From Pezizomycotina sp. ARF18 (Eukaryota; Ascomycota): DNA of 64,000 nucleotides. The DNA lies in the NCBI GenBank assembly GCA_002224055.1, contig AZLU01000010.1:304409-368408 (forward strand). The letters run 5' to 3'. This document shows, piece by piece, positions 5,284 to 53,462 of this stretch. Both the position numbers and the translations under genes were made by a program. Within the stretch, counting starts at the first letter, position 1. The number at the start of each line of letters is the position of its first letter. The notes beneath the pieces were generated by a model. The model saw only the letters and a list, made by a program, of their open reading frames with translations. It had not been told where the DNA came from and did not search any database.

Positions 5284-8177
5284 GTTAATAGCTGCTTCAG
5301 GAAGAACTACAGGTTCATTGTAGTGATAGACCTAGAGCAAGAAATATGAGATTGGAAGCACATCTTTCTCCTACTTTCATTTAGGAAATCTTAAGTAGGG
5401 GAATAAAATTGAGGAAAGAAAGAAAGATAAGGCCCGAAAGAGGAATCTACTCATTTTATACCCTCTACCAGGCATGCCATGAGTCCACCCATTGCTTCTA
5501 CATTCTACAGCAAAAAGGCTAATTTTTCGTATTTTTCTATTTTTCCTATGCAATGCTCTCATGACCTTGAAACCGAGTATTATACTTGCATTCCGTTGCA
5601 AGTTAAACAAGATCTTGTGACGAGTTCTACAGATTATATAGCTATTTCAATGGAGTTTTCTATGATGAAACAAGTAGTAAAGTTCGCGATACTAAAAGCT
5701 TGTGTTTTGCAATGTTAACTGTAAATGAACGCGACATACTACAGAGTTGCTAATATAGAACTTTAGTTGACACGCGTCTGTGAGATATTGCGATCATCTT
5801 CATCGAAAAGTAAGAAAAAATATAGCTTAGACTGCATCAATAAATCAAAGATCTGACAATGTACGAGAAATTTATCCAATGATTTGTTACTCCGCAGTGA
5901 TCATCGTGAACAAGTTAGATGTCCTTCGCTATAATTATATTATCGTTTTATTCCCAGTTTTTTCAAAAAAAAAAAAAAAAAAAAAAAAAACTCGCGATCC
6001 AGTAAGAACGAAGACATAAATAACTTGATGGAATCATTATTTGCAGTCTTTCTTTTTTCAATCTCAAGACTTCTTTCGTATACGTATAAACATCCAGTTT
6101 TAGTACAAAAGATGCCATCCTATCAGTAGTAGCTTTCAAATGCTTTAACTATTGGAAATGATGCTCCCCACTATTTGCACCACCTCCGCATCTCCTCCGA
6201 AGAATATATATACATTATAGCCCCCCGGTGGATCTCCGCCGACCCCAAACCCCCGATTCGCTACCTCCCATTGCTCCCAACGTCGTCCCTTGGCGACTAT
6301 ACCTGATTCGTCGGGCGGGTTTAGAATCCAACCTCCAAACTTTCTTTTCTAAAACAAAAAAACAACAAACAAAGAAAAATAAACCAACCTCCGGGTCAAA
6401 TCTCACGATGCTCTTGTGAAAACATAGAATGTGGTGGAGAAAGTGATAATTTCGGATGTAATAGACGCGACCGGTCGACCAGTAAAGTCATTATATATAT
6501 CTATATACTACCGAAACAGAAATCTTTCACATTGATACAGAAAAATCTTTTGGATTTGTGATGGAAGTCTCTCTTTTATTGGCTTTGGAGAAACTAGTTG
6601 TGATTTGTGATTGGACTGCTACTATTCCCTAAACCAATACAATAAAAAAGAGAAGCCGTATAAAAATCCCAACCAAACCCATCACATAGCGCGTCTCAAA
6701 ATTTTTGTAATAGCAAAGAGAAAAAATAGAGTGTGAAGTAGTAGTCCACTGTTTCAAATACAAGACAAAACAAGTAATCGCAAAAAGAACAAGGCAGAAA
6801 AAGAAACTTGCGTAGTAAACAACTCTCCTCCCATTTGCCGTTAATGTGGATACATTCCCAATTCTCCATATCTCCCTGTGGTGCAAAAAGGTGTCCACCC
6901 GAGTGTTTTGCTTCGTAGGATGATAAAAGGGAAAAAGGGGTGTAGATGTGCAGAAGTCGTAGGAGTGTGTTTTTGTGTGATGAGAGAGAGTCCTTCTCTG
7001 ATAGGAATCCTCCGTCTTGTACAACAAAACAAAAAAGATGAAGTAGAGACTCCGCCAGCGGTAGTCAAAATGGTAAAGAAAAAACAAACGAAATGAACGA
7101 ATACAGGATAGAAACAACATGTAATAACGAAACAAACTTTTGTGGTTTCAAATTTTTTGGGGTTTTCTGTACTCGACCTCTACAAGTAGTAAATTATAGG
7201 ATGAAAGGTGGCCAAACTTTTCATGATTGGGGGCTGTACTACTCATTCTCAGCAAAATACTTTTTGAAGTTTCAAAAAAAAAAAATTTGAGGGTTTTGGT
7301 GGTTTTCATTATTTTCAAATATTTTTTTTAAAGTTTTTTCTGTGCTCGACCTCTACAAGTAAAGGAGTTAGATGGTATATGAAGTGAGCTTAGATGTTTT
7401 CAAGTTTTTTTTTTTTTTTGAAGACTTCGTGGTTTCATATTTATTTAGTGTTTTTTGTACTCAACATCTACAAGTAGATGGAGTGAATGATTATAATGTG
7501 AGGGTTTTTGGTTGTCATATTTTTTTGTCTTTCTTTGAGTTTTCTGTACTCGACCTCTACAAATAGAGGAGTTTTTTCCCCCCTTTTTTTTTTTTTTTTT
7601 CTGTAGATGCCTGGATGATGTAAATGGTGGATGAAAGGTGATCAGTCTTTCAAGATATGAAGTGTGTAGTGTTCTTCCTAAGGCAAATACTCTTTTTTTT
7701 TGTATAAGCTTTTTCCGTATATAAGTTTTCTTTTTTTTTTTTTTGGGGTATTTTTCCGGTTTTTTATAATCTTCCCTCTTGATCTTTCTTGCTTAGTAGT
7801 GATGGATGAGAATGAGAAGTGTGGAGTAAGAAATAAAGATGTAACGATGAGAAAGAAGGAGATGTAAGTAGTAGTAAAAAGATGAGACGATGAGAAAAAG
7901 AGATGTATGTGATAGTAAAACGAAATCCCAAACCAGAAACGCCTTTAAAAAAACCCCAATGTAGCAATCAAATGAAGATTGCTCCTACGAGAAAAAAAAA
8001 CGAGTAAAAAGGAAACGCCGTCGCTTTGTGATATATAGGAAGTAAGAAAAAGAAATGTTCGCCGTGCATTGTAATGTAAAATGTCCCGTGTTTGTTAATG
8101 AATCCGTAAAAGATAAAAGAGAGAAAAAACGCTGTTGTTGTTATTAAGAGAGATTGAACGGTTTGCTTCCTAACCCT
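5284..8177. other. Intergenic with poly-A/T runs and a short direct repeat family
   Basis: It holds a poly-A run at 5966-5990, AT-rich low-complexity DNA and the repeats at 7160-7570. Open frames here, including a 168-residue Phe/Tyr/Leu-rich one at 6629-7135 (-), look non-coding. Confidence 0.45.
7160..7570 (+). repeat. Four diverged direct repeats with core CTGTACTCGACCTCTACAAG
   Basis: The core occurs at about 7167, 7340, 7456 and 7544, with one to four differences, separated by 173, 116 and 88 bases of T-rich DNA. Each is followed by TA or AA and a GGAG/GGATGA-type stretch. It lies downstream of the minus-strand gene ending at 8178. No role is known. Confidence 0.7.
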
Positions 8178-11100
8178 TAGACCGGGGCGCCTGGGTTGGA
8201 CACTTTCGTTCTGAGAAACAGCCTGCTTGGTGGCTCTTTGCTTCTTTGGCTGTAGCTGGTTATCGTTGTCCTCTAGAGCGTCGTTAGCCTTGCGCTTGTG
8301 GCGGGAGCGAGAGTGGTCTTTGGTGCAGCGGCCTTGGCTGGTTTGGGCTTTGGAGCGGCCTTGGTCGCCGCCTTGCCATTCTTAGCCTGTTGAAGTTCCT
8401 CAACGCTCTCCTCAGCATCATTAGACTTAGTGGCGCTCGCCCTCTTGGTCACCTTGCCCTTACCCTTTGGCTCTTCCTCATTTTCGTCGGTCGCCTTAGG
8501 CTTGTTCGCGGCCGCCTTCTTGGGGCGGGAGCATTGGCCTTAGTCAGTCTTCGCTTAACAGGGCTTTGTCCTTCGCTTGACTACCTTCGGCTTAGCAGCC
8601 GCTTTCTTCGGCTGAGCGACACCTTTGGCCTTTTTGGGCCGCGGCTCCTTCTCGTCATCATCAGCGACGGCTTTGCGCTTGGTGGCCCTAGTCTTCGCTG
8701 AGCAGGTTCGGGACAGCAGAGGCTCCACGGGTACGGCGAGCTGACTGAACGGGCATGGCAGGCTTGGGAGCGGCATCCTTCTTGGCTGCAACACGCTTGG
8801 AAGCGCGAACTGGCTGGACGTCTTCAGCGTTAACGACTTCCCAGTAGCAGTCGCTTCGTGTTGAGCTGCTGCAGCTGCGGGGTAGCGGAGGCTCCGCGAC
8901 GAGTGGAACGCTTGAGAAGCTCAGAAGCTGCAGATTTCTTGCGGGTAGCTCTGGTAACCTTGGGCTTGGGAGCTTCGGCAGCTTCAGGCTCAGTAGATTC
9001 GGTAGCGTTGGGTTCAACAACTTCAGTAATCTTTCCAGCTCTGCCAGGCTTGACGGGAGCAACGTGCTCTTCGTCTTCATCGTCAGAGTGAACAGTCCTG
9101 GCGCGCTTGTTGCCGTTGAGCTTGGTGACAGTAGACTCAGGAATCGGGGTGGCGTTGCGAGAGGTGACCTGGTAATCTTCCTCGCGAGACCCTTGCGGGG
9201 AATGGACTTCTCGGCTTCAACGACCTTCTTCGCCGCAGCGCGCTTGGTGACGGGAGCAACGGCTTCGTCATTTTCATCGGCTTCAATGATAGTGGAGAGA
9301 TCGGCTTTATGATGATGAGAGTTTTCCTGATCCGCAATTTCTGTGGTGACGGGAGCGACAGCTTCATCGTCTTCGTTGTCGGATTCGATGATAGTTGAGA
9401 GATTTGCGTTATGAGGATGAGATTCCTCCTGATCCACAACTTCGGTGGTGGTCGCAATGTTGCTGTCAACATCAGTGGCGACATTGACAAGTTCGTCACC
9501 ATCAACACCATTAGACTCGGGGTTTTCGTTGTTGTCATCCGCGAAGGCATCAGTGTTCAATTGGTCCTGAGCCTCATAACCAAAATCGTCATCGATGTTA
9601 CGACCGGAATCGGCAGGGTAATTCACAGCGAAATCGCGATCCGAATCATCTGAATCAGAATCACTAGAGATGGAAGAGTCATCCGATCCGGAATCGTCGC
9701 CTTTGTTGGCTTCGCGGAGGTGGTGAACATGCTCATGTTAGTTTCTCCCTGATTAGCGACCTCGGCGGTGGTGCCGTTGTCCAAACGAAGACCAGACCGC
9801 TGTTGACGGATTCAAGGGCGGCGATAGCATTGGACTCGGGAGTCTCAACGTTCTCCTCGTCGACCTTGGTAGTGGTGCCGTTACCATTATCGGTGATAAG
9901 AGGGAGAGCTGCGGGTTGAACCTCGTCGTCCGAATCCACGTAATCGGGCAAATTATCGTTCAACCAAGAATTGCTGTTGGTACCAGTCTCAACAGCAGTG
10001 GAGCTCATGTTCTCATGAGTCATTGGGAGATCACCAGCTTCTGCCTCGTCGTGATCGGACTTCTCAAGGTCGAGTCGGACTCAGACTCGTCACAATCAGA
10101 CTGATGGAATCGACATAGTCATAGAGGGAATCCTCAGAATCGGAATGCTCGTCGTTACCGTTCCCGGCAGCAGCGGTGGCCTGAGTAACGGGCGCCTTGC
10201 CCTTCCCTTTAGCGGTGGAAGCCTTGGTAGTAGCAGCTGGGGCCTTGTCCTTGCCCTTTCCATCACCGTTGGTGGAAGCGGTGGTCTTCTTGGTGTTCCC
10301 TTTCCCAGAAGACTTGGTGGTAGCTGCGGCTTTCTTTTGCTTCCCTGGCAATCCTGGCCTCATATCTCTCGTCGTCCGAATCGGGGATGTGGATGACGTC
10401 AGTGCCGCGCTTGAATCCTCCCTTCCTGGCAAGCTTGGCTCGTTCATGGTCGCCGTTCTCCTCGTAGAGATCCGCAACTTCATCCAGTTAGATCCAGGAT
10501 CGAGGCGCTTAGGACGAAGGTACTTGGCGAATTCATCTTCCTCATCGGAGGGATCGGAGCCGGGATCCTCGAGCTCTTCTTCGCGAGGTTCTTCGAAGTC
10601 GGCATCAGCCTCTATGTCACGGTCGTCACCATCGTCAGGAAGAGGTTCGTGAACGGTCTTGCTGCGCTTCGGAGTAGGACCTTCGGCGTGGATCTTGGAA
10701 AGATCCTTACGCTTTGATCCGGCGCCGATGAGCTTGTTGGCAGCATCCTCGGAAGTTTGGGGGTAAGTGATTGTAGCGCGGAAATTGAAGAGTTCAGGAT
10801 TTCCAGAGATCGTGTTTTGGTTTGAATCTTTAGGGTGGAAATCCTGTGATCTCCGGAATTCTCAATGCATTTAGAAGACCGGTGAATAAACCCTTGGTAG
10901 AAATCTGTGGTACGGGAGCCGGCTTGGGTTCCTCGGGCCTGCGTTCAAACTCCAACATGGGGTCCGGCTCGCCCCTGGCAAATGCCTCCTCCCTGATCTG
11001 GCGACTGGCTTCAGCACAGGTGATATGCCGCAGATAGGTAGGCCTTTATCCTCCTTCTCGCGAGTATAGCCGAGCTCACGAGCTTCTTTATGGGTTTCGA

Positions 11101-14100
11101 TCCGAGTACCTGTTCCGTTGGGCATCGACTTGGAAGCCTGAGCCTTGACGGACTGAGGAGCCCCGACGTTGCTGGTAACCTCGGTGTTGTTGGTTGCCCT
11201 AGCCTCGTTCTCGGCGGCAGCCCTGGCTCGAGCGGCTCTCCGCTGCTCGTTTGCGCTGACGTTCTTCCCTCGCTGCTTCGCGCGCTTTTTCCCTTTCCAG
11301 CTTGAGCTTCTTCTCCTCTTCAGCTTTCTCCCATTTTCTATCGTGCGTCACCCAGCACTGTTTCTCCTCATCCCAATGATGCTTGTCCGGACGCGCCTGC
11401 CAATTGCCATGGATATCTATGTAAAAGGTCTGGGACTCTGTGAATGGCTCCACAGGCGGCGGCTTGTCGTACGGCCCGTCACTTCCTTCCTGATCACTTT
11501 CCTCCCGATCACTGTACTCCTGATCGCTGTCCTCCTGATCAGTCGGTTTGGTGTATGGCTTAAAAACGGGAATTGACAAACCCGAGCCGGACGCAGCGCT
11601 ATCTGCAATCTCCTGTGGGATCTCAATTTCCGCATCTTCTGAAGCTATGGCTTCCGTCCCATCTGCAGCTTTAGCCTCCTCTGAAGCTTCAGCCTCCTCA
11701 GCAGCTTTAGCAGCAGCTTCCTCGGCTTCAGCAGCTTCCTCCTCTGGTGTTTCTGCAGTTTATACTTGGAAAGGTACTTGCCCGACTTTGGGAACTTGGT
11801 TTTAACTTTGACATATCTCAAACCGGTCTGTAAATCTTTCCTTTCAATCTTTTGAGGAATAATCGGATTTCCCCTTTATCCTTTTGAACTTTTTCCCACG
11901 ATCGAAGGTCGACAGAAGGATCCTAATCCTTCAGCCAAGCTTTCTCTTCTTTCTCCCTCATCTCAGATTCAGTTTTACCCCTGTCCGCGGGATCATCGTA
12001 ATCCCTGATGCGGTGTGCAGCGCCTCATGCGCATCTTTCGTCTTCTTCTTTTCGACTGCTTCATTGATCTTGTCGATGGTGTCACGCATCTCCAGCTTCT
12101 TCTTCTCGGCGAGAGCGTTTTCAATCTGGATTTCCTCCTTTGCAGTCAGGGGCTTTTTCTTCAGGAGCGTGTCCACCGTTTGCTTCCTGCTCGTGCCCTT
12201 AGCTACGAGTTGCTGCTCCCTTTTTTGCATTTCGTCCTCTTCAGTCAGCTGTCGAGGCTTGCGCTGTACACTAGGAGCAGCAACGTAGGGGTGCCTGGCA
12301 GCGGTGTTTCCCTGATGAGCCGGCCTATTCTGTCCATTATTGGGCTGGCGATCCCTAGCTTCCTGCTGTAAATTGAAAGAAACGTTAGCATATTTCTTCT
12401 GAGCAATGCTTAAAGCAAAGACGTTAAAGAAAAAGAAACAAGACATGAGGAACGATTGCTACATACCCTGACATTCTCATTGCCGCGAGCCTGCTGGCCA
12501 TTTTGAGAACCCTGCTGAGCAGTGTCATTGGCGCGAGCTTGCTGCTGACCACTTTGAGAACCTTGTTGAGCAGCCTATTAAAATAATCAGTAAATATGTC
12601 CGAAGTAAGGTTTAGAGGAGGGAAGAAATAAATAGAAAAGAGCTCACCTTAGCGTACGAATGACAATTGTTGGCCTGAGCACTCCCAGAACCCTGCTGAG
12701 GGGGCTACACAAGTCAGCATCGAGATGAAATCACAGTGATTGCTAGAATATAAAGGATGTTTAAGACGTACATGTTTAGACGTGGACCATGTTTGGACGA
12801 GCAGTGGAGGCCGCCTGCCCCTGTGACCAGAACCCTGCTGCTGAGGCTTTTGTACTTATCAGTAAAGCAATTCAAACAACCTTGTGTTTGAGGTGAAGAT
12901 CAAAGAATCAAGATAAACTCACCATGGAATTGGGAAGAGCGACAGCAACTTTACCCGAACCCTGCTGCTGGGGCTTTAGATGTTATCAGTAAAAACCATT
13001 CCAAAAATTCATTTCCGTGAAGAAACAAAATATCAAGAGAATCTCACCTTATTCTCGGGACGAGCATTAGAAGCGGCTTGTCCACTATTTCCAGAACCCT
13101 GCTGAGGCGGAGAAGGCTTTTACGAAGAAATCAGTATTAACTACTCTGAAAAACTCGTGTTGAGAGAAATAACTTGAGAATCAAAAGAATGGAACTTACC
13201 TGGGCATCGGCATCGGTTTTGGCACTCTCGGCCTTGAGAAGATTCTCGAGATCGGGGCGTTTCGCAAACAGTTCTCCAACAAAGTCTGGGACATTGGTGG
13301 CAGGTGGCGGCATCTTTAGAGCCTCGGCGTAGCGGCGCTGCTCGGTAGCTTTCTGCTCGGCAGCTTTCTTCTGCTCCTGCTGACGGATTTCCTCGGGGGT
13401 GAAGGGAACAGTCATTCCCGTGGCCTCTTCTGCTCTGCGGTCATAGCAAAAGGATTATATGTGGGAGGCTGGTAAACCTCTTGAGCAGGTGCCGCCTGAG
13501 CCTGGTTGCTAGGAGCGTTAAAGGACTGCTGCTGCTGGGGCCTCTGCTGTTCGTTGTTACGCTGCCCATGCTGTCCAAAAGGCCTGTATTGTTGTTATGG
13601 CCATGATACTGCTGCCCGCCGCGGCGGTTCCTGTTCTGTCCATTGTTACGGTAATGGAACTGCTGCCTATTGTCATAATGATTGGACTGCCTGTTGTCAT
13701 GAGGCTGGTAGCTCTGTCCGGCGTTGTGCCCCTTGTGGCCGTGCTGCTGCTCAGAAGAACGACCATTGAAATCATTAGGTGGAGGGAGCGCGATAAGGCC
13801 TCTTGCCAGAGACCTGAACGTAATTGCCGTTGTTATTCCAAGACGGCTGGCCGTTCCCTTTCTTGGTGGTCTTGATTTTTTTTTAAAAAAAAAAAAACAG
13901 ATTAGCCAGTGTTTCATAGAAGCGGATCATCACGAAGCTCGCAATATGCAATAGATAAAAAAATAAGAAAGGCTAGCAACGAGCAAGCCAGCAAGACATA
14001 TCGACCCATTATAACAACCACGAGGGGATGGTTCGAGCTCCAAAAAAAAAAAAAAAAAAAATAGAATAATGAACATTCTCCAAACGAGCAATAAAAAAAA

Positions 14101-14853
14101 AAGCTTCGCGCAAAGAAATTCTTTCAAGGAAAAATAGATAACATCCATATGAAAAACCACAAGTGTACTCACCTCCCAATTATCCGACTTGATCTGATCT
14201 GCCCTAACGCGCTGCTCCTCAGACGCCTCCCACATGCGCTCCTTGTGGCGTTGATCGCTCTCCTGTTCACGGCGAATAGCAGCATCCCTGTAGGATTTCA
14301 TCCCTTCCCTGGGAATCCTGGAGCTTTCATAGCGTTCAGTGGCCTCACGAGACATGGACCTAGTCCTGCCGCTCTGCTGAGCCTCGTGGTGGCTCTTCGC
14401 GTAATCCTCAAGCCTCATTGGTCCCTTTCCTCCCTGAGTCTTGTCCATGGGGAGATAAAGTGGGGACTGGTGACCTGACCTCTTGTCCTGTGTTTTGCGG
14501 GGGGATAAAGGTTAGCAATATGTCGCAATGAAAAAGCAGAATCTTGAATATAGAGAATATTTGCCATAGAAGCAATAGAAGGAATCGAAAGTGTAGATAT
14601 TAATATGCCATCAACAAGTTTTTAACGGAATATTCCGCAAGCGCAATGGACTCTCCAAGTAATTGAATACACAAAACATCGTAAGCACATCGAAACTGAA
14701 TACATATATTCAAAAAGGGGACAAAAATTTGTAGATCGGCAAACGGTGCGCCATTGACCAGTAATAAGAATGAAACTCGAAATCAAAGGAACAAACGCAA
14801 TGAACCTAAGAAGAAATACTTACAGGGTTTCCTTCAGGGTTGTAGTAAGGCAT
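8178..14853 (-). CDS. Giant low-complexity modular protein, multi-exon, unknown
   Basis: I do not recognise this family. Exon 1 is 14824-14853 (MPYYNPEGNP), with a GTAAGT donor. Exon 2, 14173-14487, encodes a charged segment (LYLPMDKTQGGKGPMRLEDY, later KERMWEASEEQRVRADQIKS). Next comes a Gln/Asn/His-rich exon (13.44-13.87 kb), a helical segment ending KTDADAQ at 13200, and five repeated mini-exons (12467-13116). A long exon follows (from 12365) with a Lys/Glu coiled-coil-like part, an Ala/Glu-rich acidic part, QDSDQEYSDREESDQE-type repeats and FYIDIHGNWQARPDKHHWDE (11.4 kb). The 8.2-10.9 kb part alternates acidic DYVDSDDE modules with basic PKKAAAKPK modules. The stop is near 8178, uncertain. 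The product may be about 2000 residues; whether it is one gene or two is open. The frame shifts many times. Copies of its modules lie at 40 and 53 kb. A nuclear, nucleic-acid-related role is inference only. Confidence 0.55.
12467..13116 (-). repeat. Array of five repeated phase-0 mini-exons (PQQGSG units)
   Basis: Exons at 13048-13116, 12923-12973, 12772-12846, 12648-12704 and 12467-12574 encode 23, 17, 25, 19 and 36 residues. Each begins with P/A and QQ(Q)GS, e.g. PQQQGSGKVAVALPNSM and PPQQGSGSAQANNCHSYAK; the last contains two units. All five are exact multiples of three with GTRNGN-type donors and AG acceptors, so any can be added or skipped without changing frame. Introns are 67-76 bases, and several share an ATCAGTA motif just inside the acceptor-side end on the plus strand. 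The unit length is 127-143 bases. Confidence 0.8.
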
Positions 14854-14869
14854 CTTTCTGATTATTAGA

Positions 14870-15360
14870 CCTGTTTTAAACGGATATAAGAAAACTTTTG
14901 AAAAAGTGATGACTGTAATAATGATTATTAGCAATGCTCAGTATCACTTAAGACAAGTAAATAGGAAAGTGGTAATTGTGTACTAGACCGATCCGAGCAA
15001 AGCTCCAGGACCTTTCACAAGCATTTGAAATAAAAGTTGATTGCGGATAATACTTACGAGGGTGAAGAAAATAGATGTAAGGCGGATTGTGATGAAAAAT
15101 GTTTTGTATAACAGAAACTGAAATGTGATGACTGTAACAGAATTATTATTAGCAGCGCTGTGATATCACGCAGGACGAGTCGTAGAAGGTATTATAACGA
15201 TCTTAACAAAGCACCAGGATCTTTTATAAGCAGTTAAATAAGAAAGACGACCGCAGATAGTACTTACCAGTAAAAGTTATGAGACGGATTTTAGTGATAA
15301 TTTTTGTATAACAGAAACAAAACAATATAAAAAACGCAATAGTAAGACTGTAATAATAAA
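14870..15360 (-). repeat. Two to three tandem units of about 205 bases in the 5' region
   Basis: Blocks at about 14990-15190 and 15195-15360 align along their length: a GATC..AAAGC.CCAGGA.CTTT..AAGCA stretch, then a minus-strand GTAAGT-like donor (at 15057 and 15262), then TTTTTGTATAACAGAAAC. A partial third unit at 14872-14960 matches the TGATGACTGTAA..ATTATTAGCA part. The conserved donors suggest repeated 5' UTR exon/intron units of the gene starting at 14853 (inference). Confidence 0.65.
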
Positions 15361-15904
15361 AAAAAGGACTTTCTTTTTTTTTAACTTTTTATCTTTTTCA
15401 AAGCAGTAAAAATGTAATAATTGAGACGGTTCGACAACAAACGGTCTCTTGTCTTTTTCTTTATAAAAAAAATCGATAACTTCTTTCTTAACAGTTTTCA
15501 CCCCCAAAAGAATCTTTCTTTCTTTCTGATAGATTTGTCAAGTGGTTTAGTAACACGAGAGAAAGGAAGAGTGAAGTAGTAAAACGTATAGACGTTGTTA
15601 GCAGTTTTTTGAGAGCTTTGGAAGAGAATTTTCTTTTTTTGTGAGAGCGCTTTTTAGAAATTTTGTTTGTGTTAGTTGTTTCGTGGTGGCGAGAAGGGGA
15701 AAAGTTTCTGGAGGGGCATGGTGGGAGGTGAGTAATTGTAGTTAGCAGCAAAAAAAAAAATGTTTTTTACTAAGGGCTAATTCTTTTTTTTTTTTTTGTC
15801 CCTTGGCAGTTTTTATAGGCAGAATAAATAAATAAAACAACTTCACTGTAATAGCCCTTATTATTATTATTTTTATATTTCAATGTTTGCTCTTAGGGCT
15901 CGAA

Positions 15905-16320
15905 ACCCTCCGTGGTGGGTTTTCTTTAACTCCTGTAACTTCGTGTTCACGATCTTGTACATTCTGCTTGTTTTCTGTAGATCTAAATTGGGCTTATTGA
16001 ATCAGTCCTCTATACTAAATCCGTTATGCTAAACCTAACTTAAGATTTTTCTCGTCATCGGGACGCACACCCTAAAAGTGTGGGCGAGTTTCCACCTTGT
16101 ATGACTTTATGTTCACCGTCTTGTGTATTCCACGTATATTCTATATTCATACGTGCAATCCCAATTTCATTCCCCTAACAGCGTACACTAAGTTCAACTC
16201 ATCGTCCCAGGATATTTACCCCGCATTGCGAGTGAATTCTTCACCTTCCGTAACTCCATGTTCTCGATTTTGTAATTGTAAAATTGAGCTAGTGTCCTCT
16301 ATATACCTGATTCAACGTTG
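15905..16320 (+). repeat. Three diverged tandem repeats, period about 145-165 bases
   Basis: Three blocks at about 15908-15964, 16075-16134 and 16220-16279 share a plan: a TTC.CC/TTTAAC segment, GTAACT or GTATGACTT, TGTTCACGATCTTGTA or a close variant, followed by a CTAA..TCAAC-rich linker. Identity is moderate and no open frame spans them. Confidence 0.55.
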
Positions 16321-18021
16321 ACTCACATCCACTTGATAATCTGTATTTAGTCTAACTAAAGGTAGTTCTTAGTTCTGAGAAATATAACACTGGGGCTCAC
16401 TCTGGCAGGAGACTGGGCTCATGAGAATCTATGTCTGCGACATGAACCGTATAGATTGGTTTTTGTTCCATGGATCCAATTTGCTGAAGAATTTTTCTTC
16501 GTCGCCAGTTTTCATTTTCTTATTTTTTTTAAACCTCTAGAATACACAAGTTCAAATAATGATGTACGATCGAGTACCGCGGAGACTGGCGACTAAGCAC
16601 GCATGTGTTCGACTGAGGGCCTTTTGAATATGTATAAAAATACAGACTTATCCATCGGTAAAAATTATACAGGCTCATAATCCCCAATGAATATTATTTT
16701 CAACACGAGAACAATATTCCATTATATTACAACGTTAAATGTGCACTCCCACTATAAAAAACGTGTATACCGATGATGCACAGTCTAGAAAAAAAAGGGG
16801 GGGGGGCGTACAGATACGTGCTACAGGCTTAAGTATTTAATGATAGATAATCTTTTTTTTTTTTGCGTTCGCCAGTTTCGACGCTATTTAATGCAAGGTA
16901 ATTCACGCACATATCTCAATTCCTACAGGCACAACGATTTTGTTGTCAAGTCGTGTCAACGATTCCATTCTAAGAGGCGCTATGCTAAAGGCTAGATAAC
17001 AGTCTCGCTGGAGGACCTTCTGATCAAGTAGGAAAAAAACAAAGAAGCCGAAATAATAAAGGGAAAAGGGAAGAGAAAAAGAGGAGAAAGAACAAAAAAT
17101 GGGGCGGGATTAAAGTTAAAGAATAGAGAGACAAGGGAAGAAAATGTGGTGAAGAAAAGGTTTTCGCTAAGGGTTACAGAGTAGGTAGTAGGTTTGAGGA
17201 TTGTTAGGAGGTAAGTTATGGTAAAGGTGTCTGTTTGGTAGGCGGTCGTCAAGGGGGTAAGTATGAGTAGGAGAATCAGGCAGTTGCGGGGTTACACAAA
17301 CGAATGGCTTATATATTTCCCGTATAACCATCGAAGTACTGATGGTGTATGTGGTGGGGTAAAAAACAGTGGATGAGGGTTGAGGGGTAGTGAATGACAA
17401 AGAAATAGTGGCTAAGAAATATTTTCAGGACAAGAAACAAAATCAAAAAAAAGGAAAGAAACATGCAGAGTTAAGGGATAAGATCGTTATATAAAGACGC
17501 TAGAATGAAGACTGGAATATAGTTGAACACAATGAACAGTTATTCACCTTATTGGTGTGCTTGTGTCGTGAGATTTTGATGAAGTACTCAACCAAATGCT
17601 TAAAGAAAAAATCTTGAAAAATATTGTGATGGCAAATAAAAAAGACAAAAGAAAGGACGCTAAGGGAACAACTGGAAAACGATAAACGTTGTTTAAAAGG
17701 AAACACAAAAATATCCTCGGTGTGAACTATTCCTGAAAGAGTCCACAAGTTGATCAAAACTCCGGTGTCGTCATTTCACGGCTGTTGTTGACCATGAAAT
17801 AGTAGTAATTGCATCGTAAAAATAGGCGGACAAATTTTTTTTTTTTTTTTTTTTTTTGCGTATCTGTGGTTAAGAAATTCCAAGATGTGAAGGTGAATCC
17901 GAGATTTAACCGTTCTGGTCGCCTTCCAAGAATTCATTCGAGCGCTCTCCTTCCAAATGCTTGTACTTAAAACCTTTGATACCGCCATTATGCAGTGGTT
18001 TTTTGCGTTTGGCAACGTGCC

Positions 18022-30771: not shown

Positions 30772-31995
30772 ATGAGTAACATCGTCAACAAAGTCAAGGA
30801 AGCCGTCACCGGCCATCCTTCGGGCACCACCCACCACGGCCACGATACGGCTGGTAACACCACCGCTGGCGCCGGAACTACCGGTACTTACGGTACCGGC
30901 AGCAATGTTCATGGTGGAGCTACTCACACTGCCGGTCCTCACAGCTCCGACATGGCCAACAAGGTCGACCCCGCGTCGACTCTGATCTTGACGGATCGCG
31001 CGCTATGGGCACCGGTAACACCACTACTACTGGTACTTCTGGATACGGAACGGGACCTCACACTAGAACCGGTCATGGATCGTCCAACACTGCTGGCCTT
31101 CACAGCTCCAACTTGGTAAGTTATTGTTTGCCCTCATCTTTTCAGCAGATATAAGCTTTTCACAATATCATTTCCACAAAAGAACAATAAACTAATATTT
31201 TTTGTCACAAAATAGGCCAACAAGCTCGACCCCCGTGTCGATTCTGACTTAGATGGCTCTCGCACTATGGGTCAGGGTTCCACTGCCTACGGAACCACTG
31301 GAACCACTGGCACTGGAGCGTACGGAAGTTCGGGAGCTTACGGATCTTCCGGACCAGGCCCAGCTACTCACACTGCTGGTCCCCACTCCTCGAACATTGG
31401 CAACAAGGTCGACCCCTCGTCGACTCTGATTTGGACGGCCGCGGTTCTCAGCGCATCGGTGGAACCACTGGATCCGGTTACGGAGGCACCATCGGCACCG
31501 GTGGAGCCTACGGAGGTACCACCGGCACCGGTGGAGCCTACGGAACTTCCTCGGGAGCCGGCCCTCACTCGTCCGGCCTCGCCAACAAGCTTGACCCTCG
31601 CGTCGATTCTGATACTGGATACGGCACTGGCGGTGCTGGCACTACTGCTGGAACCTACTCCGATACGGAACCCACTCCGGACACGGAACCCACTCTGGAG
31701 CCGGCCCGCACTCTTCCGGCCTCGCTAACAAGGCTGATCCCCGCGTCGATTCTGACACTGGCTATCACACCGGCGGAGCTGGCACTGGCACTCACACCGG
31801 CCACCACGGCGGTCATCAGCACGGTGCTGCCGGAGGTGTTCAACACGGTGACAGCACCGGACCTGCCCCGCACACGGCTGGTCCGCACAAGAGCGACATG
31901 ATGAACAAGCTTGACCCCGCGTCGACAGCGACCTCGACGGCAGCAAGACTCTGGGCCAAGACAAGACGTTCTCCGGGAGCGGATCTGCTGTGTAA
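30772..31995 (+). CDS. Dehydrin-like stress protein with DPR repeats
   Basis: It starts MSNIVNKVKEAVTGHPSGTT and ends KTLGQDKTFSGSGSAV with TAA at 31995. One intron runs from 31116 (GTAAGT) to 31215 (TAG). The protein consists of about six units of the form HTAGPHSSNxANKxDPRVDSD, linked by Gly/Thr/Tyr/Ser-rich spacers and a His-rich spacer near 31.8 kb. This DPR motif defines the fungal dehydrin-like proteins described in Aspergillus fumigatus (DprA to DprC), soluble disordered proteins linked to oxidative, osmotic or pH stress tolerance. The raw frame breaks at about 30967, 31411, 31661 and 31914. At three of these the codons for D-P-R have one C fewer than the intact units at 31227, 31593 and 31737, so the breaks are very likely sequencing errors. 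Expected length is about 370 residues. Confidence 0.8.
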
Positions 31996-40083: not shown

Positions 40084-41009
40084 TCAGTACCATGGCGAGG
40101 ATTTGTTTTGCTTGTTATAATAAATCCGAAGTCTATCTTTCTGGGCTTCTATCTTGCCTTTCTTGGCCTGCTGAGGTTCTTCGACGCTATCATCAGTAGC
40201 CTTCGACCTAGTAGCGGAGCCCGCTTGGTGGCGGTAGCCTTGCCCTGCCCTTACCCTTCGGCTCTTTGTCATTTCCGTTGGTCGCCTTAGACCTGGCAGC
40301 GGTAGCCCTGCCCTTACCCCTGGATTGCTGAGGTTCGTCGGTCTTAATCAGCCTACGCTTCACGGGAGCTTTATAGTTCGCCTTGGCTGTCTTAGGCGTA
40401 GCAGCGGCTTTCTTGGGCTGAGCAGTCGCTTTGGTCTTCTTGGGCTGAGGTTCCTCATCGTTATTATCTTCTGCGGCGGCCATGGGGATGTTAGGAGCTG
40501 TAAATAGACGAAACAACAATCCGAGTATAGTACGAGGATGTGACAAGCTAGCTAGTCCCATTATTTTCATCATAGAAAGACAATACAGTTTGCGGACGAT
40601 GCTAGACAATCAAGAAAGCAAAAACAAATGGGAACTCACTGAGGCTACTGTATGCCGGAGTCATAAACATCGATATCGGGAATATGTACATCGTCGTATT
40701 GGCTGGATCTATATCGAGAACATCGACCTCATAGTCCGCTTTTCGGTTCATATCGACGTCATGGTCGACTCTTGGATCAATATGCGAGATTGGATATAGG
40801 AATTTTAAGCTAACGAGATAATATACCGTAAACAAAGGAGGTTAGTAGCTGAATGAATACAGATATTTTCTTGAAAAAAGAACGACTTGCAGAGTAACAG
40901 ATTATATGCAAATAGACGCAAACTCAAAGATCCCGGTCGATGAAATACAGCAGAGCAGCTATACGAAGGACGAAGAAACATCGGCCGACTTACACATATC
41001 AAGAAGCAT
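40084..41009 (-). CDS. Short paralogue of the giant gene's basic C-terminal modules
   Basis: A short first exon (MLLDM, 40994-41009, GTAAGT donor) can be followed by an acidic exon at about 40640-40825 (SHIDPRVDHDVDMNRKADYE) and a basic exon from about 40500: MAAAEDNNDEEPQPKKTKAT, AQPKKAAATPKTAKANYKAP, VKRRLIKTDEPQQSRGKGR and, after a one-base change, ATRSKATDDSVEEPQQAKKG. The last parts align with the 8.3-8.7 kb modules of the giant gene (EEPRPKKAKGVAQPKKAAAK, VKRRLTK, ESVEELQQAKNG). It is either a small separate gene or a truncated duplicate. AP/K-rich sequence like this is typical of histone H1-like tails; nucleic-acid binding is inference. Confidence 0.45.
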
Positions 41010-52818: not shown

Positions 52819-53462
52819 TTATACCAATAAAGAATTCGCAATACCTAAATGAGGGCATATGGTAATGAATGCCTTCAAGTGTACTTCTTTAGGGTCAGCT
52901 TTTTCCATTGTGTCTTTATACTTTGGCAAATATACGAGCTGGTTTGTAAATAGCTTTTTTTCTAGAGTCCTTGCCTTCCCTATTAGCCTGACGGAAAGTG
53001 GTGAACATGCTGTCCTGAGAAATGACAGTCTCATATCATCGGTGAACCTAGAATTGTTGTTGTTGCCGGGTTCAAGGGCAGTGATGGCGTTGTTCTCCGG
53101 AGTCTCGACGTTCTTTTTATCGACAACCTCGGTGGTGGTGCCGTTATCATTATTGATATTCAAAGGGAAACAGCTAGTTCAACCTCGTTATGGGAATCGA
53201 CGTAGTCGGGCAAATCATCGTTAAAACCAGAATTATTGTTGCTGCCGGTCTCAACGGTAGTGGTAGCCATGTTCTCCTGAGCCTTGTCAGTCTCCTTATC
53301 AGCAACCTCGGTGGTGGCGCCGCTATCGGTATTGATATTCAAAGGGAGATTAGCTGGTTCGGCCTCATCCTGATCAGTATCGACGTAGTCAGACAAATCA
53401 TCGTAAGTTTTATGGTTGTGCGCGGCGTTGTGATGGGATCTTAAAGGGACGTTTATCCCCAA
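52819..53462 (-). pseudogene. Relic of the giant gene's acidic DYVDS modules
   Basis: Minus-strand reading gives two tandem copies of a module also present at 9.75-10.0 kb: DDLSDYVDTDQDEAEPANLP, TTVETGSNNNSGFNDDLPDY, VDSHNEVEL, then NDNGTTTEVVDKKNVETPEN and NAITALEPGNNNNSRF. The giant gene has TAVETGTNSNSWLNDNLPDY, VDSDDEVQPAALPL, NGNGTTTKVDEENVETPESN. The relic lacks the basic modules, and its 5' part (KARTLEKKLFTNQLVYLPKY) has no counterpart seen. A frame change lies near 53160. It looks like a duplicated fragment without its own start. Confidence 0.65.

Follow-up and report, generated by a model that had tools for sequence, protein, structure and literature searches.

A tandem exon-intron array in a fungal gene, probably grown by internal duplication of an intron with its following short exon

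The window (the whole 64-kb stretch of DNA analysed here, from a 46.36-Mb assembly in 408 contigs) carries on its minus strand a candidate gene that contains a run of five short exons, E1 to E5, with introns between and on either side of them. One RPB2 stretch of the assembly matches six fungal RPB2 sequences at 365 to 371.9 bits, while the next group reaches 302.9 bits at most, and the rDNA motifs are probably those of a filamentous ascomycete. The features are given below in the order in which the gene reads, with window coordinates; exon and intron boundaries of the array were picked by eye from splice signals, and thus with those signals in mind.

Exon A, 14824..14853, minus strand: likely start MPYYNPEGNP, then a GTAAGT donor; by eye
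Exon B, 14173..14487, minus strand: 315 nt, phase 0 on both sides; by eye
Exon C, 13200..13870, minus strand: coding stretch upstream of the array, Q/N/H-rich, with several frame changes; by eye
I0, 13117..13199, minus strand: 83 nt, before the first unit; donor GTAAGT, branch ACTGAT
E1, 13048..13116, minus strand: 69 nt, PSPPQQGSGNSGQAASNARPENK
I1, 12974..13047, minus strand: 74 nt; donor GTGAGA, branch ACTGAT; last 32 nt also on contig C59
E2, 12923..12973, minus strand: 51 nt, PQQQGSGKVAVALPNSM
I2, 12847..12922, minus strand: 76 nt; donor GTGAGT, branch ACTGAT; whole intron also on C59
E3, 12772..12846, minus strand: 75 nt with a GTACGT donor; tail out of frame relative to its sisters; doubtful exon
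I3, 12705..12771, minus strand: 67 nt; donor GTACGT, branch GCTGAC; unlike the other array introns
E4, 12648..12704, minus strand: 57 nt, PPQQGSGSAQANNCHSYAK
I4, 12575..12647, minus strand: 73 nt; donor GTGAGC, branch ACTGAT
E5, 12467..12574, minus strand: 108 nt, a pair of repeats of 51-nt period that no intron separates
I5, 12366..12466, minus strand: 101 nt, after the array; donor GTATGT, branch GCTAAC; unlike the unit introns
Downstream coding stretch, 11967..12365, minus strand: K/E-rich

An earlier description of the same DNA (the original prediction) had placed the array at 12467..13116, and the outer coordinates found here are identical. Its five exons of 51-108 bases return as candidate exons of 69, 51, 75, 57 and 108 nt, and its units of 127-143 bases as exon-plus-next-intron lengths of 143, 127, 142 and 130 nt. 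Each exon was said to encode one variant of (P)QQ(Q)GSG. All five do open with such a form or with AQQGSQ: PQQQGSG or PPQQGSG in general (in E1 after PS), AAQQGSQ and TAQQGSQ in E5. The rule of one repeat per exon breaks at E5, where two repeats meet at an intronless junction, so that the array holds six repeats in five exons.

The upstream coding stretch ends at 13200 with ...AESAKTDADAQ and the downstream one opens at 12365 with QEARDRQ..., which places the array product between Ala/Glu-rich and Lys/Glu-rich stretches. As read, the array translates into 120 residues, 20% of them Gln, and Gln, Gly, Ser, Asn, Ala and Pro together make up 74%. The gene probably extends beyond the downstream stretch and its product is probably long, of low complexity and disordered; we infer that the array is a disordered linker lengthened through block duplication. 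No Pfam family scored over the cut-off with any of five frames of the gene region or with the joined array (the exon B frame gave Phage_Mu_F at 0.019 and Noda_Vmethyltr at 0.088, both below cut-off), nor with ten more frames from other parts of the window. A PDB search with the joined array found no relative, and protein searches for paralogues with the array flanks and with exon B to C gave only the gene's own locus among the matches listed.

The tandem array is real. A repeat finder recovered five copies of a 41-nt sequence, in register with one another and covering the branch site, the acceptor and the beginning of the exon, spaced 130, 142, 127 and 137 nt, four of them with 61-85% identity to the reference copy. 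Among 100 dinucleotide shuffles of the 901-nt region none contained any 41-mer with three matches, against the five copies observed. When the 64 kb were divided into 141 overlapping segments of 901 nt, the two lying over the array ranked at the top with 4 copies each (not five, because their edges cut the array), followed by three segments with 3 copies. Alignment, repeat finder and shuffles agree that neighbouring array exons are homologous. Tandem Repeats Finder, run over 8000-17000, reported within the array only the 51-nt pair of E5 and missed the 130-nt period.

In each of the six introns that bound the exons the donor fits GTRNG, and each contains CTRAY, the fungal branch consensus, starting 14-24 nt before the intron end. 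The motif would be expected in 1-8% of shuffles of each array intron, a figure to be read with the related introns counted as dependent on each other and I3 and I5 as independent. By eye, an ACTGAC branch also occurs in one polymerase-gene intron of the same assembly. None of the six intron lengths is divisible by 3, a stop codon appears in the upstream exon's frame in every intron except I3 (5/6), and the introns are T-rich by eye, unlike the exons.

Whether the introns are related to each other was judged from 28 pairs altogether, each compared with 400 shuffles, the controls being two polymerase-gene introns delimited by eye. With splice signals included, the score of the six pairs among I0, I1, I2 and I4 was reached by 0, 0, 0, 0, 0 and 1 of 400 shuffles, and that of the best of the nine pairs involving I3 or I5 by 14. 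This form of the test is generous, since high scores were likewise obtained for 3 of the 13 pairs that included a polymerase-gene intron (2, 3 and 12 of 400). Once the donor and branch parts had been removed, four of the six I0/I1/I2/I4 pairs stood at 6, 7, 12 and 15 of 400, the pairs I0-I4 and I1-I4 at 40 and 86, and the remaining 22 core pairs at 30 or more. Judged from these alignments, I0, I1 and I2 are of common ancestry, and I4 probably shares it; for I3 and I5, pairwise alignment against 400 shuffles made no kinship to other array introns visible. The introns between units measure 67-76 nt; the predicted likeness among introns holds for I0, I1, I2 and probably I4, and gives way at I3.

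A search of the genome with the array DNA identified a second block, C59:12248-12440, which matches the array at 83% over 193 nt. It comprises the last 32 nt of I1, E2, the whole of I2 and the start of E3; its copy of E2 is 63 nt long, 12 nt more than E2 of the array, and reads PQQQGSGNNGQAVANARPNPM. Because the block keeps the succession of intron end, exon, intron and exon, an exon and its intron have on at least one occasion been transferred together. Searches for copies of the array, or of I2 with its exon edges, elsewhere in the genome gave only this block among the best candidates. A pattern modelled on the PQQQGSG start had five matches in the genome, two in the array, two in the C59 block and one on contig C212, and a control pattern had none.

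As a separate observation, the C59 block (positions 1501-1693 of locus L002) follows an unrelated reading frame, which takes its stop codon from the I1 branch region; that reading frame has no Pfam match.

With the six repeats of the array and the two of the C59 block, eight copies of the QQGS core can be compared. Their first and second codon positions are invariant, and three of the four third positions vary. Such synonymous-only variation is weak evidence of coding constraint, because invariance was the ground on which the core was chosen and because the codon that follows it varies at all three positions.

We favor the possibility that the array arose by repeated internal tandem duplication of an intron plus the short exon that follows it, and on sequence grounds we consider this origin likely. 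The original prediction had spoken of exon-intron units copied as blocks; that idea is borne out by the likeness of I0, I1 and I2 (weaker for I4) and by the piece on C59, and it does not extend to I3 and I5. An intron, I0, already comes before E1, and for this reason we take the copied block to be an intron with the exon after it. Unequal crossing-over or slippage between adjacent units would have produced the copies, and these may have been tolerated because every block preserves the reading frame, each unit adding about 17-25 residues of Gln/Gly/Ser-rich linker. Later, I3 would have been replaced or have diverged, E3 would have lost the common frame while its donor shifted, and E5 would have gained or kept its intronless double repeat. 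On this reading the array exons are probably spliced in constitutively.

E3 is the least certain member of the array. In the alignment its tail is one base short early on, the tail's reading frame differs from that of the sister exons, and the site matching the E2 donor reads GTCCAC. The exon is open only if the donor is GTACGT, 16 nt past the site homologous to the E2 donor, and it is then 75 nt long and in phase 0. The one-base gap and the 16-nt donor shift thus compensate each other, which is either real evolution or luck; the exon may be defunct or may have been misread. Together with the several frame changes in the upstream exon, the out-of-frame E3 would be in keeping with a decaying or non-genic array, that is, a damaged gene in which splicing and translation of the repeats have ceased. 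We regard this as unlikely. In the same assembly, conserved polymerase genes look, by eye, broken about as often or more, so the frame changes in the array gene may be sequencing errors, and four of the five exons are intact and have good splice signals. In RPB2, for instance, comparison by eye with the protein gave about nine frame changes in about 0.9 kb of coding sequence. The assembly seems rich in indel errors; array exon lengths may therefore be one base off, and frame-based claims from this assembly call for care.

Two further polymerase genes also look broken by frame changes when inspected by eye (the polymerase loci are L014, L015 and L016).

A different route to the same layout would be the independent insertion of a multiplying intron into each repeat of an intronless coding minisatellite, in the manner of introner-like elements. 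Such elements occur in ascomycetes such as Capnodiales (PMC8469720), and E5, in which an intronless double repeat adjoins intron-bearing repeats, is what this route could leave behind. Nevertheless, we think it very improbable, as every insertion would need to have hit the same position in the repeat. Furthermore, the best genome candidates contain only the gene itself and the C59 block, and the latter carries exon sequence as well. Fungal introner-like elements have been described as symmetrical or as stably folded (PMC8469720), while none of the six array introns folds with a stability above the mean of its own shuffles (z 0.03 to 1.28).

The predicted phase 0 at both ends of all five exons applies to E1, E2, E4 and E5 and is doubtful for E3, given the frame of its tail and its donor shift. 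We do not count this symmetry as independent evidence, because block copying that preserves the frame forces phase 0 and because exon B of the same gene, at 315 nt, likewise has phase 0 on both sides. The proposal that the units are cassettes yielding a ladder of protein isoforms through exon skipping draws on the same property: E1, E2, E4 and E5, with E3 on the reading given here, have lengths divisible by 3 and are in phase 0, so skipping would preserve the frame. Against it, the symmetry results from the copying itself and is found in exon B too, and short introns suggest splicing by intron definition. Exon skipping is also reported to be comparatively low in fungi (PMC6142364), and we hold such a ladder to be very improbable. 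The broader notion of a fast-changing cassette array, with isolates differing in unit number, a skipping ladder and blocks exported to other genes, has in its favor the hint of export given by the C59 copy beside an unrelated reading frame, and we regard it, too, as very improbable.

There is precedent for the internal tandem duplication that we prefer. In Arabidopsis TOUCH3 and the cases of Gao and Lynch 2009 a whole intron was copied with exons inside a gene (both as cited in PMC4974935); multiplication of an existing intron by internal tandem duplication is thus an already known way for genes to lengthen, and the statement in the original prediction that no described fungal gene has this build was too strong as regards mechanism. 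Among the papers listed by literature searches, mostly without subscription papers, we saw no description of a fungal gene in which introns separate almost all repeats of such an array. The array resembles TOUCH3 and the other cases in that exon and intron were apparently copied within one gene, and differs from TOUCH3, with its two duplications, in its larger number of copies, in the shortness of its exons, in coding for a low-complexity protein and in being fungal (PMC4974935). The fission yeast genes SPOG_01682 and SOCG_00815 are likewise fungal, and in them, too, a tandem duplication coincides with phase 0 introns, but there a 24-nt repeat itself forms the new intron (PMC3629103), whereas the array introns look unlike the exons and seem to have been copied whole. 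In the Rogers model a duplicated AGGT exon segment gives rise to an intron, whose sequence would then derive from the exon; the array introns, by eye, are T-rich and do not resemble the exons.

Other systems share single features with the array. Schistosome micro-exon genes also have short symmetric exons, and some members have an internally repeated exon-length pattern; about 80% of their coding region consists of exons of 6-36 bp, and their products are mostly secreted or exposed, with protein variants confirmed (PMC5825161). The array exons, in contrast, measure 51-108 nt and are flanked by longer exons. SP7-like effectors of arbuscular mycorrhizal fungi combine low complexity with imperfect tandem repeats and have a conserved intron before the first repeat (PMC11333574); in the array I0 precedes the first repeat and further introns part the repeats. 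We rejected membership of the SP7 kind on composition, because Asp, Tyr, Lys, Ser and Gly amount to 75-80% of those effectors (PMC11333574) and to at most 35% of the 120 array residues (Ser 15, Gly 15, Lys 4, Asp and Tyr no more than 4 each). The AGL proteins of Glomeromycotina are fungal tandem-repeat proteins with introns as well, but with one or two near the signal-sequence boundary and not one per repeat (PMC8786786). With fungal introner-like elements the array shares the presence of several related introns in one fungal genome (PMC8469720); we disfavor that class for lack of copies in other genes among the best candidates and of a stable fold. A report on internal duplication in Magnaporthales (PMC5897359) was set aside as being, in the part available, not about introns.

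If the array did arise by tandem duplication of intron and exon together, it would be a compact example of an existing intron multiplied along with a coding repeat, in which several stages can be seen together: introns that are still alike, one that has diverged, a donor that has shifted, a double repeat that lacks an intron and a block that was exported. Should unit number vary among isolates, intron multiplication by tandem duplication would be directly datable in a fungus.

Several other repeats were seen in the window. When window 8000-12400 served as DNA query, two partial matches elsewhere were listed, and both fall on sequence that lies downstream of the array. A 150-nt stretch at about window 10694-10842 has an 80% copy at C13:325205-325357 (locus L018), and window 8372-8662 is related to 40153-40468, with 69% identity in this search and 72% in another comparison. 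Also downstream of the array, the coding-like stretch at window 9801-10019 is matched at 77% by 53032-53404, some 43 kb off, which is itself tandemly repeated at 77%. On the minus strand at window 7153-7566 there are four 37-nt copies of a CTACTTGTAGAGGTCGAGTACAGAAAAC-like sequence, spaced 173, 115 and 89 nt, which sit in A/T-rich and probably noncoding sequence. At window 30918-31786 a coding-like frame with HTAGPHS repeats carries direct repeats within it that are 36-104 nt long and 83-94% identical.

Two observations concern other contigs of the assembly. At C257:15500-19500 (locus L036), on a contig of 56.5 kb, an 879-aa open frame resembles a divergent RNA polymerase second subunit; with the other frames beside it, the contig looks plasmid- or virus-like by eye. 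At about 752-1207 of locus L028 the small-subunit rRNA gene carries, close to its 3' end, an insertion of about 450 nt, which from its position is probably a group I intron.
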